DNA of 64,000 nt from Methylohalomonas lacus (GTDB taxonomy: Bacteria > Pseudomonadota > Gammaproteobacteria > Methylohalomonadales > Methylohalomonadaceae): assembly GCF_024808875.1 (NCBI RefSeq), contig NZ_JANUCT010000007.1, positions 62,001 to 126,000 on the forward strand, read 5' to 3'. Below, piece by piece: positions 50,738 to 54,851 of the stretch. How positions within the stretch are numbered: the first letter of the stretch is position 1; the number at the start of each line of letters is the position of its first letter. Under the pieces are notes generated by a model. That model was not told the origin of the DNA. It saw only the letters and a program-made list of their open reading frames with translations, and made no database searches. Made by a program: the position numbers and the translations under genes.

Positions 50738-51706
50738 GTGTTCAGTAAAGGTTCCAAACAGAGCAATGATGCCCCGCCGGCCGCGGCGGAGAAATCCGGC
50801 GGCCTGCTGAAAAGTCTCAAACGCGGCCTGAGCAAGACCCGCGATCTGCTGCTTACCGATGTCGGCGACCTGGTGCCGCGCGGCGGCAAGATCGACGAGG
50901 CCGCGCTCGAGGAGCTGGAGAACCGCCTGCTGCAGGCGGACGTCGGCATCGATGCGACCAGCGCCATTCTCGACAACCTGCGCGAGCGCGCGCGCAAGGC
51001 CGGCGACGGCGATCCTGGCGACCTGTTGCGCGCCGCCATGCTGGACATACTGGCGCCGGTAGCACAACCGCTGGATGTCAGCACTGCAAACAAGCCATTC
51101 GTCATCATGGCCGTCGGCGTCAACGGTGTCGGCAAGACCACCACGCTGGGCAAGCTGGGCGCGCACCTGCGCGACAGCCATCACAAGGTGCTGCTCGCCG
51201 CCGGCGACACGTTCCGCGCGGCTGCCATCGAACAACTGCAGGAATGGGGCGAACGCACCGGCCTGCCCGTGATCGCGCAAAGCCACGGCAGCGACGCCGC
51301 CTCGGTCGTGTTTGACGCCATTCACTCGGGACGGGCACGCGGCAGCGACGTGGTGCTGGCCGACACCGCCGGTCGTCTGCATACCAAGGACTACCTGATG
51401 ACCGAGCTCAAGAAGGTGCGCCGCGTGATCGACAAGATCGAGCCGCGGCCGGACTACGAGGTTTTGCTCGTCATCGACGCCAGCACCGGTCAGAATGCGC
51501 TGGTGCAGGCGAAGGAGTTTCACCAGGCAATCGGCCTGACCGGTATTGTGCTGACCAAGCTCGATGGTACCGCCCGCGGCGGCATTGTTTTTGCCCTGGC
51601 ACAAAACCTGGGTCTGCCGATCCGTTATATTGGTGTCGGTGAACGGATCGAGGACCTGCGGCCGTTCGATGCTGAAAGTTTTGTCGATGCCTTACTGGCC
51701 CAATAG
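50738..51706 (+). CDS. ftsY: Signal recognition particle receptor FtsY
   Basis: 322 residues. The N-terminal A domain is very short here (about 25 residues against about 200 in E. coli). The NG domain has the N helices LENRLLQADVGIDATSAIL, G1 GVNGVGKTTTLGKLG, DTFRAAAIEQL, G3 LADTAGRLHTK and G4 TKLDGTARGG. It docks ribosome-SRP complexes at the membrane. Translation starts at GTG 50738. It opens the ftsYEX-rpoH group and is 143 bp from the divergent M16 gene. Confidence 0.96.
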   Translation: MFSKGSKQSNDAPPAAAEKSGGLLKSLKRGLSKTRDLLLTDVGDLVPRGGKIDEAALEELENRLLQADVGIDATSAILDNLRERARKAGDGDPGDLLRAAMLDILAPVAQPLDVSTANKPFVIMAVGVNGVGKTTTLGKLGAHLRDSHHKVLLAAGDTFRAAAIEQLQEWGERTGLPVIAQSHGSDAASVVFDAIHSGRARGSDVVLADTAGRLHTKDYLMTELKKVRRVIDKIEPRPDYEVLLVIDASTGQNALVQAKEFHQAIGLTGIVLTKLDGTARGGIVFALAQNLGLPIRYIGVGERIEDLRPFDAESFVDALLAQ

Positions 51707-51735
51707 CGCAAACACGGACTGACAGACTCTCGATC

Positions 51736-52410
51736 ATGATTCGCTTCAGCAACGTCTCGAAGCAGTATCCCGGCGGCATCGAGGCGCTCAGGCAAATCAA
51801 TCTACATATCGAGGAAGGCGCCATGGCCTTCGTCACCGGCCGTTCCGGCGCCGGCAAGAGCTCACTGCTGCGGCTCATCGCCCTGATCGAACGGCACACC
51901 CGCGGCCAGATCATCATCAACAACCAGAACCTGGAGCGCGTGCGCGGCCGGCGCGTGCCACTGTTCCGGCGCAACATCGGCTTCATGTTCCAGGATCACC
52001 GGCTGCTGCACGATCGCACCGTATTCGACAACGTCTCGCTGCCGCTGGTCATCGCCGGCGCGCGCCACCAGGACATCGTCAAGCGCACCCATGCCGCGCT
52101 CGACAAGGTCGGCCTGCTGCACAAGGAAAAAGCCTATCCGGTCGCGTTATCCGGCGGTGAGCAGCAGCGCGTCGGCATTGCCCGTGCGGTGGTGCACCGA
52201 CCGGCACTGCTGCTGGCCGACGAACCGACCGGCAACCTCGATCCGGCGCTGTCCTGGGAAATCATGCAGCTGTTCGAACAGTTCAACCAGGTGGGCGTCA
52301 CCATTCTGCTGGCCAGCCACGATCTCGACATGATCAAGCGCATGCGCAAGCGCATCATCACCCTGCGCATGGGCCGCATACTCGACCAGGGTCGCGACGA
52401 TGAAAAATAG
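51736..52410 (+). CDS. ftsE: Cell division ATP-binding protein FtsE
   Basis: 224 residues. It has Walker [15 protein letters not shown]-loop [18 protein letters not shown], the signature [15 protein letters not shown] and Walker [13 protein letters not shown]. FtsEX is not a transporter: it activates periplasmic septal peptidoglycan hydrolases through FtsX. It overlaps ftsX by 11 nt and follows ftsY by 29 bp. Confidence 0.97.
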
Positions 52411-53425
52411 GTTCATCGGCAAGGGCAAGAGCGAGCGGCGCGAAAAGCCCCGCAGCCGCCGTGGCGGTGCCTCGCGCCGACGCTACTTCGGCGAGCGTAT
52501 CAAGGACGGCGGCAAGGTCTGGCTGCTGCAGCACATGCAGGCGGCGGTGTTCAGCTTCGGCCAGCTGGCCCGCAACCCGTTCGGCAGCATCATGACCATC
52601 GCCGTGATCGGTATCGCGCTGGCCCTGCCGGCCGGTTTCTACCTGATCCTCGACAATACCCAGCGCGTCGCCAGCGGTTTCGACACCACCCTGCAGATCG
52701 CCACCTACCTGAAGCTCGACACCAGCGCCGAACGCGCCGCACATCTGGCCGCGGAGCTGCGCGCCGATGAGGCAATCGGTGCGGTCGAGTACATCAGTCG
52801 CGACGAGGCGCTGAGCGAATTCCGCGAACGTTCCGGCTTCAGCGACGCCATCGACGCGCTGCGCGACAATCCGTTGCCGGCGCTGCTGCTGGTGCAGCCG
52901 GCCGGCAACGCACGCGACACGGCGGCCTACAACAACCTGCTCAAGCGTCTGCGTGGCATGCCGGAAGTCGACCAGGCGGACTTTGACCACCAGTGGTTGC
53001 AACGGCTGCAGGCGATCATCGAGACCGTGCAGCGTGCGGTACTGGTGCTGTCGGTCGTGCTCGGCATGGCGGTACTGCTGATTGTCGGCAATACGATTCG
53101 ACTGGGCATTTTCAACCGCCGCGCCGAAATCGAGATCACCAAGCTGTTCGGTGCCACCGATGCCTTCATCCAAAGGCCGTTTCTCTATACCGGCTTCTGG
53201 TACGGGCTGCTCGGCGCCATTTTCGCCTGGCTGCTAATCACCGCCGCCGTACTCTTCCTGCGTGGCCCGGTGCAGGACCTGGCGAGCCTTTACGCCAGCG
53301 ACTACCGCCTGCGGGCGGCGTCGTTACTGCAGCTGCTGGCACTGTTCGGCTGCGGCGTCGGCCTCGGCCTGGCCGGCTCCTGGATCGCCGTGCAACGTCA
53401 TATCAAGGCCATCGAACCAGCCTGA
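52400..53425 (+). CDS. ftsX: Cell division protein FtsX
   Basis: 341 residues. A strongly basic cytoplasmic N-terminus (about 1-55, [17 protein letters not shown]) is followed by TM1 (about 70-92) and a periplasmic loop with [20 protein letters not shown] that normally contacts the hydrolase activators. Three C-terminal TM helices (about 215-240, 260-285 and 305-330) include [30 protein letters not shown], the FtsX permease signature. It overlaps ftsE by 11 nt. Confidence 0.95.
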
Positions 53426-53469
53426 GACCGCGCCCGAGACGGGCGCCGGTGCCCGAACTCATGCCGTGT

Positions 53470-53499
53470 TTAGCACTCTAAGCCAAGGACTGCTAAAAT
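53470..53499 (+). promoter_or_regulatory. CIRCE-like HrcA operator over the rpoH promoter
   Basis: TTAGCACTC-N9-GACTGCTAA (53470-53496) matches the CIRCE consensus TTAGCACTC-N9-GAGTGCTAA at 17 of 18 arm positions with the exact 9-nt spacer. A -10 box TAAAAT (53494-53499) overlaps its right end; a -35-like TTAGCA (53470-53475) is 18 bp before it. The element thus covers the whole promoter, and rpoH begins 27 nt after the -10 box. HrcA repression of rpoH is inferred. Confidence 0.75.
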
Positions 53500-53526
53500 A
53501 GAGACATGATGTTTGAGGAAAACACG

Positions 53527-54384
53527 ATGAATACCAAGCTCGCCAATCTGCAGCTGGCCCTGCCAAGCGGATCGCTGGAGGCCTACGTCCAGGCCGTCAA
53601 CCAGATCCCGGTGCTTGGCGCCGAGGAAGAGCACGAGCTGGCCGAGCGCTACCAGCGCGACAACGACCTGGACGCCGCCCGCCAGCTGGTGCTGTCGCAC
53701 CTGCGCTTTGTCGTCCGCGTGGCCCGTGGCTACCGCGGCTACGGCCTGCAGGAAGCCGACCTGATCCAGGAAGGCAATATCGGCCTGATGAAGGCGGTCA
53801 AGCGCTTTGACCCCAGCGTCGGCGTGCGCCTGGTGTCGTTCGCGGTACACTGGATCCGCGCCGAAATGCACGAGTTTATTCTGCGCAACTGGCGCATCGT
53901 CAAGGTGGCGACCACCAAGGCGCAGCGCAAGCTGTTTTTCAACCTGCGTTCGGCGAAAAAGCGGCTCGGCTGGATGAATCATGACGAGGTCGAGGCAGTC
54001 GCCAGGGACCTCGGCGTGACGAGCAAGGACGTACTGGAAATGGAATCGCGCCTGAGCGCCCACGATGCGGCCTTCGATGGCGGTGCCGACAACGACGACG
54101 ATGAGCACGCGTCACCGGCGCCGATGAACTACCTCGAATACCAGGGCGATGGCCCGGAAGCGGAGCTGGAAAACACGGAATTCGAGTCGCAGCAACTGTC
54201 GCGGCTGACAACGTCGCTGTCGCAGCTTGACGAGCGCGCCCGCGACATCATCAAGCGCCGCTGGCTGGCTGACGACAAGGCGACGCTGCACACGCTCGCC
54301 GCCGAATACAATGTCTCCGCCGAACGCATCCGCCAGCTTGAGCAGCAGGCGATGAAGAAACTGCGCACCGGCCTGGCGGCCTGA
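53527..54384 (+). CDS. rpoH: RNA polymerase heat-shock sigma factor RpoH (sigma-32)
   Basis: 285 residues from the ATG at 53527, 7 nt after GAGGA; a frame opening at 53506 adds MMFEENT and lacks a ribosome site. Region 1.2/2.1 is [18 protein letters not shown]; region 2.2-2.4 is [19 protein letters not shown] and [29 protein letters not shown]. The RpoH box is [17 protein letters not shown]. Region 4 ends [20 protein letters not shown]. It directs RNA polymerase to heat-shock promoters. It lies at its usual site after ftsX and has its own promoter under the CIRCE-like element. Confidence 0.97.
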
Positions 54385-54415: not shown

Positions 54416-54438
54416 AACGGCCTGCTGGCCGTTTTTTT
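54416..54438 (+). terminator. Terminator of rpoH
   Basis: aacggcc-tgct-ggccgttttttt: a 6-bp GC stem followed by eight T residues, 31 bp after the rpoH stop. The T-run reaches the stop codon of the convergent XRE gene. Confidence 0.93.
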
Positions 54439-54851
54439 TAGCGCTTTTTCCCGCCATCGCCGGCGTTCGGCGTCGACGGCTTGTCGGCCATGCCGGATAG
54501 CAACTTCAGCAACGCCGCCTGGGCTGAAGTGCTCAGGCGATCGAACAGCGCCAGCAATTCACGTTGCTGCGCCGTAAGCCGCTGGCCGGAGCGTTCATCA
54601 GAGCCCGTCATGAAGATATTCTGAACTTCACTGTCGTCGTGCCCGCCACTGTGGCCGGTGGCCAGCCATTCGTAGCTGATGTCCAGCAACCTGGCAATTT
54701 CGGCCAGCCGCTCACCGCGCGGTGAGGTGCCGCCACCCGAAAGCTCCCACTGGCTGCAGGCACTCCGCGTCACGCCCAGCAGGTTGGCTAACCTGACCTG
54801 GGAAATGCCGGCAGCCAGCCGGGCTTTCTTTATCCGAACCCCGATATCCAT
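54438..54851 (-). CDS. XRE/HTH transcriptional regulator
   Basis: 137 residues. The N-terminal Xre-type HTH is MDIGVRIKKARLAAGISQVR through LANLLGVTRSACSQWE (about 1-60). It is followed by a linker and a helical C-terminal region with LTAQQRELLALFDRLSTSAQ, ending KPSTPNAGDGGKKR. It is of the phage-repressor-like, single-domain type. A perfect palindrome (TATACAC-GTA-GTGTATA) lies 2 bp before the ATG and is likely its own operator. It lies 250 bp downstream of cyoE on the same strand. Targets unknown. Confidence 0.88.
   Translation of the reverse strand: MDIGVRIKKARLAAGISQVRLANLLGVTRSACSQWELSGGGTSPRGERLAEIARLLDISYEWLATGHSGGHDDSEVQNIFMTGSDERSGQRLTAQQRELLALFDRLSTSAQAALLKLLSGMADKPSTPNAGDGGKKR

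Follow-up and report, generated by a model that had tools for sequence, protein, structure and literature searches.

A predicted HrcA operator fused to the promoters of the sigma-32 gene rpoH in Methylohalomonas lacus and other Gammaproteobacteria

Introduction

An inverted repeat lying just ahead of the sigma-32 gene rpoH in Methylohalomonas lacus raises the question of whether the two heat-shock regulators of this bacterium are linked, because the HrcA repressor and sigma-32 are usually presented in textbooks as parallel or independent strategies. According to the original prediction, the repeat is a CIRCE element, the operator of HrcA, placed over the only good promoter of rpoH, so that HrcA would nest one heat-shock circuit inside the other. 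Here we analyse the repeat in a stretch of 64,000 nucleotides (the window), in the rest of the genome and in other genomes of the phylum.

Results

The identification of rpoH was supported by an equivalog score above the cut-off and by the genes for FtsY, FtsE and FtsX found upstream (Table 1). The longest rpoH frame begins at 53506, which is about where transcription from the TAAAAT hexamer would begin, and for this reason the start codon was moved to the ATG at 53527 as the most likely one.

Table 1. Coordinates of genes and of predicted regulatory elements around rpoH in the window
Feature	Positions	Strand	Remarks
ftsY-ftsE-ftsX	50738..53425	+	Conserved neighbours on the 5' side of rpoH; arranged as in E. 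coli
Sigma-E-type -35 core, GAACTC	53455..53460	+	GAAC in conserved register before the left arm
CIRCE element (HrcA operator, predicted)	53470..53496	+	TTAGCACTC-N9-GACTGCTAA; departs from consensus at one arm base, 53490; conserved at rpoH in the class
Left arm of CIRCE, TTAGCACTC	53470..53478
-35-like TTAGCA	53470..53475		First bases of the left arm; separated from TAAAAT by 18 bp
Sigma-E-type -10, TCTAA	53477..53481	+	Spans the final two bases of the left arm and the initial three of the spacer; 16 nt after the -35
Spacer (N9) of CIRCE, TAAGCCAAG	53479..53487
Right arm of CIRCE, GACTGCTAA	53488..53496		Directly followed by AAT
Sigma-70 extended -10, TGCTAAAAT	53491..53499	+	TG 53491-53492, C 53493, TAAAAT 53494-53499; uses bases of the right CIRCE arm
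Shine-Dalgarno sequence, GAGGA	53515..53519		Ahead of ATG 53527
rpoH (sigma-32), 285 aa	53527..54384	+	TIGR02392, 412 bits (cut-off 323)

The repeat fits the CIRCE consensus TTAGCACTC-N9-GAGTGCTAA at 17 of 18 arm positions and with the exact N9 spacing, just as had been claimed, the sole arm mismatch being a C in place of a G. It lies 30 nt before the start codon and overlaps the -10 hexamer TAAAAT. In the window this was the single match at three or fewer mismatches, with 0.01 expected from shuffling, and the whole 2.76 Mb genome contains four CIRCE-like matches at the same threshold and none to a reversed-pattern control; at one mismatch or fewer, about 0.001 sites would be expected in the genome from its base composition. 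A chance palindrome was ruled out by these low expectations for window and genome, together with the conservation of the site at rpoH described below.

Of the four CIRCE-like sites, two lie ahead of groESL operons, one ahead of the hrcA-grpE-dnaK genes and one ahead of rpoH. Each of the two groES genes, which are located on different contigs, has a perfect CIRCE before it (positions 1501-1527 of L002, G000 contig C8, and 1501-1527 of L003, G000 contig C14), and the site of hrcA itself carries two mismatches. The presence of hrcA, on which the original prediction depended, was confirmed: one copy was found in the genome (TIGR00331, 349 bits, cut-off 197), followed by grpE and dnaK in an order read from the translations. 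The sigma-E gene rpoE is also present (310 bits, cut-off 236). The palindrome might instead serve a different repressor, but we consider this extremely improbable, given that the genome has the same sequence ahead of groES and hrcA and that the presence of the rpoH site follows that of hrcA from genome to genome.

The overlap of the operator with TAAAAT, which shares its TAA with the right arm, was as originally described; the claim that this is the only good promoter did not hold, because a sigma-E-type promoter predicted from the sequence, GAACTC-N16-TCTAA, overlaps the left arm. Its -35 matches the GGAACTT-like element at five of seven positions. The same arrangement recurs at the CIRCE sites found before rpoH in other Gammaproteobacteria. 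For 79 of 112 such sites a GAAC occurs 14-16 bases 5' of the left arm, against an expectation of 1.3, and in 113 sites the first base of the spacer is T in 68% and the third is A in 80%, which together complete a TCTNA. On the other side of the operator, the third base after the right arm is T in 90%, giving TANNNT in 101 of the 113 sites, and an extended -10 of the form TG-N-TA occurs in 111/113. In contrast, CIRCE at groES follows a TTGAC...TATTA-type promoter, with GAAC in register in none of 14 sites and TANNNT in two. Furthermore, the third base of the left arm is G in 31/113 rpoH sites (TTGGCA, closer to the -35 hexamer), whereas its mirror base in the right arm, the first of the -10, is altered in only two of 113 (p = 2e-8, a value that ignores shared ancestry). 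The two arms appear to be under different extra constraints, in keeping with a second role for each as a promoter part. Judged from these patterns, the predicted operator is fused to the promoter region, its right arm forming part of a putative sigma-70 extended -10 and the end of its left arm part of a putative sigma-E-type -10.

Because both arms overlap promoter elements, the palindrome could in principle be a by-product of TTAGCA, TCTAA and TGCTAAAAT being kept for sigma-70 and sigma-E, with no action of HrcA. Survival of sigma-E-like motifs in 14 of 40 rpoH upstream sequences devoid of CIRCE, against 0.5 expected, fits with such a view. However, GCACTC and GAGTG, arm sequences that hardly vary, correspond to no promoter consensus, and in genomes without hrcA the palindrome can disappear, or slip by one base, with the promoter parts left in place. 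A one-base slip is seen in two members of one family lacking hrcA (L195 of G070 and L200 of G184), in which GAACTT, TTGGCACTC and TGCTAAAAT are kept and the right arm is shifted one base; this is apparently a decaying operator, whose promoter parts remain and whose operator spacing is lost. Matching changes in both arms of several relatives also speak against a by-product. The C at 53490 recurs in other rpoH sites as GACTGC in the right arm, and in xanthomonad-type relatives (L054, L061, L071, L080) the same base is changed in both arms, TTAGCAGTC/GACTGCTAA. With both arms changed alike the palindrome is kept, as expected of a palindromic operator, which argues for this variant being tolerated, or even recognised, by HrcA. 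A promoter by-product is thus very unlikely, and we rejected it on the near invariance of the arm bases outside the hexamers and the decay of the repeat without hrcA.

Conservation was examined in 151 gammaproteobacterial genomes, sampled evenly and in most cases with a single genome per family, by comparing the rpoH upstream sequences with a search for hrcA and counting the site as present at four or fewer mismatches. The closest genomes compared were related at class level only, each in its own family. A majority of the first 30 rpoH loci already had, in the corresponding position, a CIRCE that was close to perfect. In the full sample, both arms were kept upstream of rpoH in 106 of the 116 genomes with hrcA (absent in 10) and were mostly gone without it (present in 5/35, absent in 30), so that the conservation among relatives called for by the original prediction was found. 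The operator was free of mismatches in 57/116 genomes with hrcA, and the mismatch counts at rpoH were two-peaked, 0-3 versus 6-9. The association between hrcA and the rpoH site gives a Fisher p of 4e-18, which ignores shared ancestry and is not to be taken at face value. It is weakened by shared ancestry: a poorly resolved tree of 102 RpoH proteins held only two independent hrcA/CIRCE contrasts on supported branches. In a set of named genomes, which overlaps partly with the 151, hrcA was found in 18 of the 19 with the rpoH site, including the genera Dyella, Luteimonas, Pseudoxanthomonas and Pleionea, and was missing from 25 of the 31 without the site, including Aeromonas, Alteromonas, Halomonas, Acinetobacter, Psychromonas and Legionella. 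As for the five genomes with a site and no hrcA, a congeneric sister of one of them carries hrcA, and two, from one family, have decayed sites; it is possible that some of the five are incomplete assemblies. The site, its overlap with the promoters, hrcA, rpoE and the conservation are all directly observed.

Two departures from the common arrangement were also seen. One of the ten genomes with hrcA and no standard site has a CIRCE-like site at rpoH with a spacer of 8 nt and not 9 nt (L153 of G100). In another genome (L024 of G010, positions 2383-2441) a single rpoH is preceded by two tandem CIRCE, 5 bp apart; an AAT-like -10 comes after the right arm of each, perhaps making two promoters.

Of 28 genomes taken from elsewhere in the phylum, outside this class, 21 contain a CIRCE-like site somewhere and none has one at rpoH; this check used the upstream sequence for loci with a recognised rpoH frame and the site coordinates for the remainder. 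An rpoH CIRCE as a property of the whole phylum was therefore ruled out.

Discussion

We find it highly probable, from the comparison of these sequences, that HrcA, maintained by GroEL, represses rpoH by occluding both promoters and that folding stress frees them. GroEL would keep HrcA folded and active, and HrcA bound to the inverted repeat would cover the sigma-70 extended -10 and the sigma-E-type promoter at once. HrcA would leave the operator, and rpoH would be transcribed, once GroEL is taken up with misfolded protein or HrcA itself is unfolded by heat; sigma-32 would then raise the chaperones, including GroEL, so that HrcA would be restored and the loop closed. Envelope stress would add to this response via sigma-E, but only within the bounds set by HrcA. 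At the rpoH promoter we infer HrcA occupancy, repression and heat induction; in several bacteria HrcA has been reported to need GroE for DNA binding, and misfolded protein to titrate GroE (reviewed in PMC6032397). The presence of hrcA and the conserved arms lend good comparative support to the nested circuit originally put forward, with HrcA placed over sigma-32. Counting against it, RpoH and HrcA are reported to act independently of each other in Agrobacterium, which belongs to a different class (Nakahigashi 1999, cited in PMC11764788).

A working operator does not have to be the main heat switch. HrcA might mainly limit basal transcription of rpoH, with heat induction set by translation or protein stability as in E. 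coli, a reading that overlaps with the repression proposed above and to which we give a lesser but appreciable chance. In E. coli, control of sigma-32 is largely post-transcriptional. In line with this alternative, sigma-32 activity and stability are under chaperone control (PMC6032397). In addition, a search for a terminator between ftsX and rpoH found none, so that read-through from ftsYEX could bypass HrcA, and part of the rpoH mRNA may originate further upstream. On the other hand, near-consensus operators at rpoH in most genomes with hrcA suggest tight, stress-responsive control, which counts against this alternative.

When compared with the classical control of groESL and hrcA-grpE-dnaK by HrcA and CIRCE, the rpoH site has the operator sequence, the 9-bp spacing and the repressor in common, and the GroEL feedback is expected to act alike. 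It differs in that the target is a sigma factor and that the operator is fused with promoter -10 elements. In E. coli, the sequence upstream of rpoH contains GAACTT-N16-TCTGA, with a spacing equal to that of GAACTC-N16-TCTAA here, and the ftsYEX neighbours are the same. The E. coli element is known as the sigma-E-dependent promoter P3 of rpoH. E. coli, used as a control in the profile search, yielded no hrcA, and CIRCE is absent at the corresponding place of its rpoH upstream sequence.

It is somewhat probable that repression by HrcA of a fused sigma-E/sigma-70 promoter is ancestral for gammaproteobacterial rpoH, and that in E. coli the sigma-E promoter outlasted both hrcA and the operator, which were lost. 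Operator and promoters would have evolved as one element, each arm doubling as a promoter part, and a single repressor would gate both cytoplasmic and envelope stress. The layout, which would place one heat-shock circuit atop the other, is found in most of the sampled gammaproteobacterial families with hrcA and not in E. coli, so that the textbook separation of both circuits may be the exception. If HrcA does bind, the E. coli scheme, where translation and proteolysis are the main determinants of sigma-32, probably represents a derived state that arose once HrcA had been lost. Lineages with hrcA, with hrcA recently lost and with hrcA long lost would in that case provide a natural series for the decay of a regulatory layer over a surviving promoter.

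In 2004 a CIRCE free of mismatches was predicted in Geobacter sulfurreducens, 51 bp ahead of the start codon of rpoH (PMC545781, Table 8), which is the same regulatory link in a bacterium with hrcA and likewise a computed one. That organism is a delta-proteobacterium, and the prediction concerns one species, G. metallireducens being unlisted; promoter overlap, sigma-E input and class-wide conservation are not described there (PMC545781). In view of the Geobacter prediction, the link between HrcA and rpoH is not new in kind. No description of the class-wide rule, the association with hrcA or the fused operator-promoter was found in the open literature. A 2003 survey of regulons in beta-, gamma- and epsilon-proteobacteria (Permina and Gelfand 2003, cited in PMC545781) covers the right classes and regulators and may already list rpoH under HrcA; we found no report of a gammaproteobacterial rpoH CIRCE in the open literature, and priority is uncertain as that survey was outside our reach.

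Lastly, two features were observed in the window on the 3' side of rpoH. A terminator-like hairpin with a T run lies just after the gene, at 54417-54440 (ACGGCCTGCTGGCCGTTTTTTTT), and a small open frame on the minus strand, at 54438-54851, is convergent with rpoH and resembles by eye a helix-turn-helix regulator of the XRE type.
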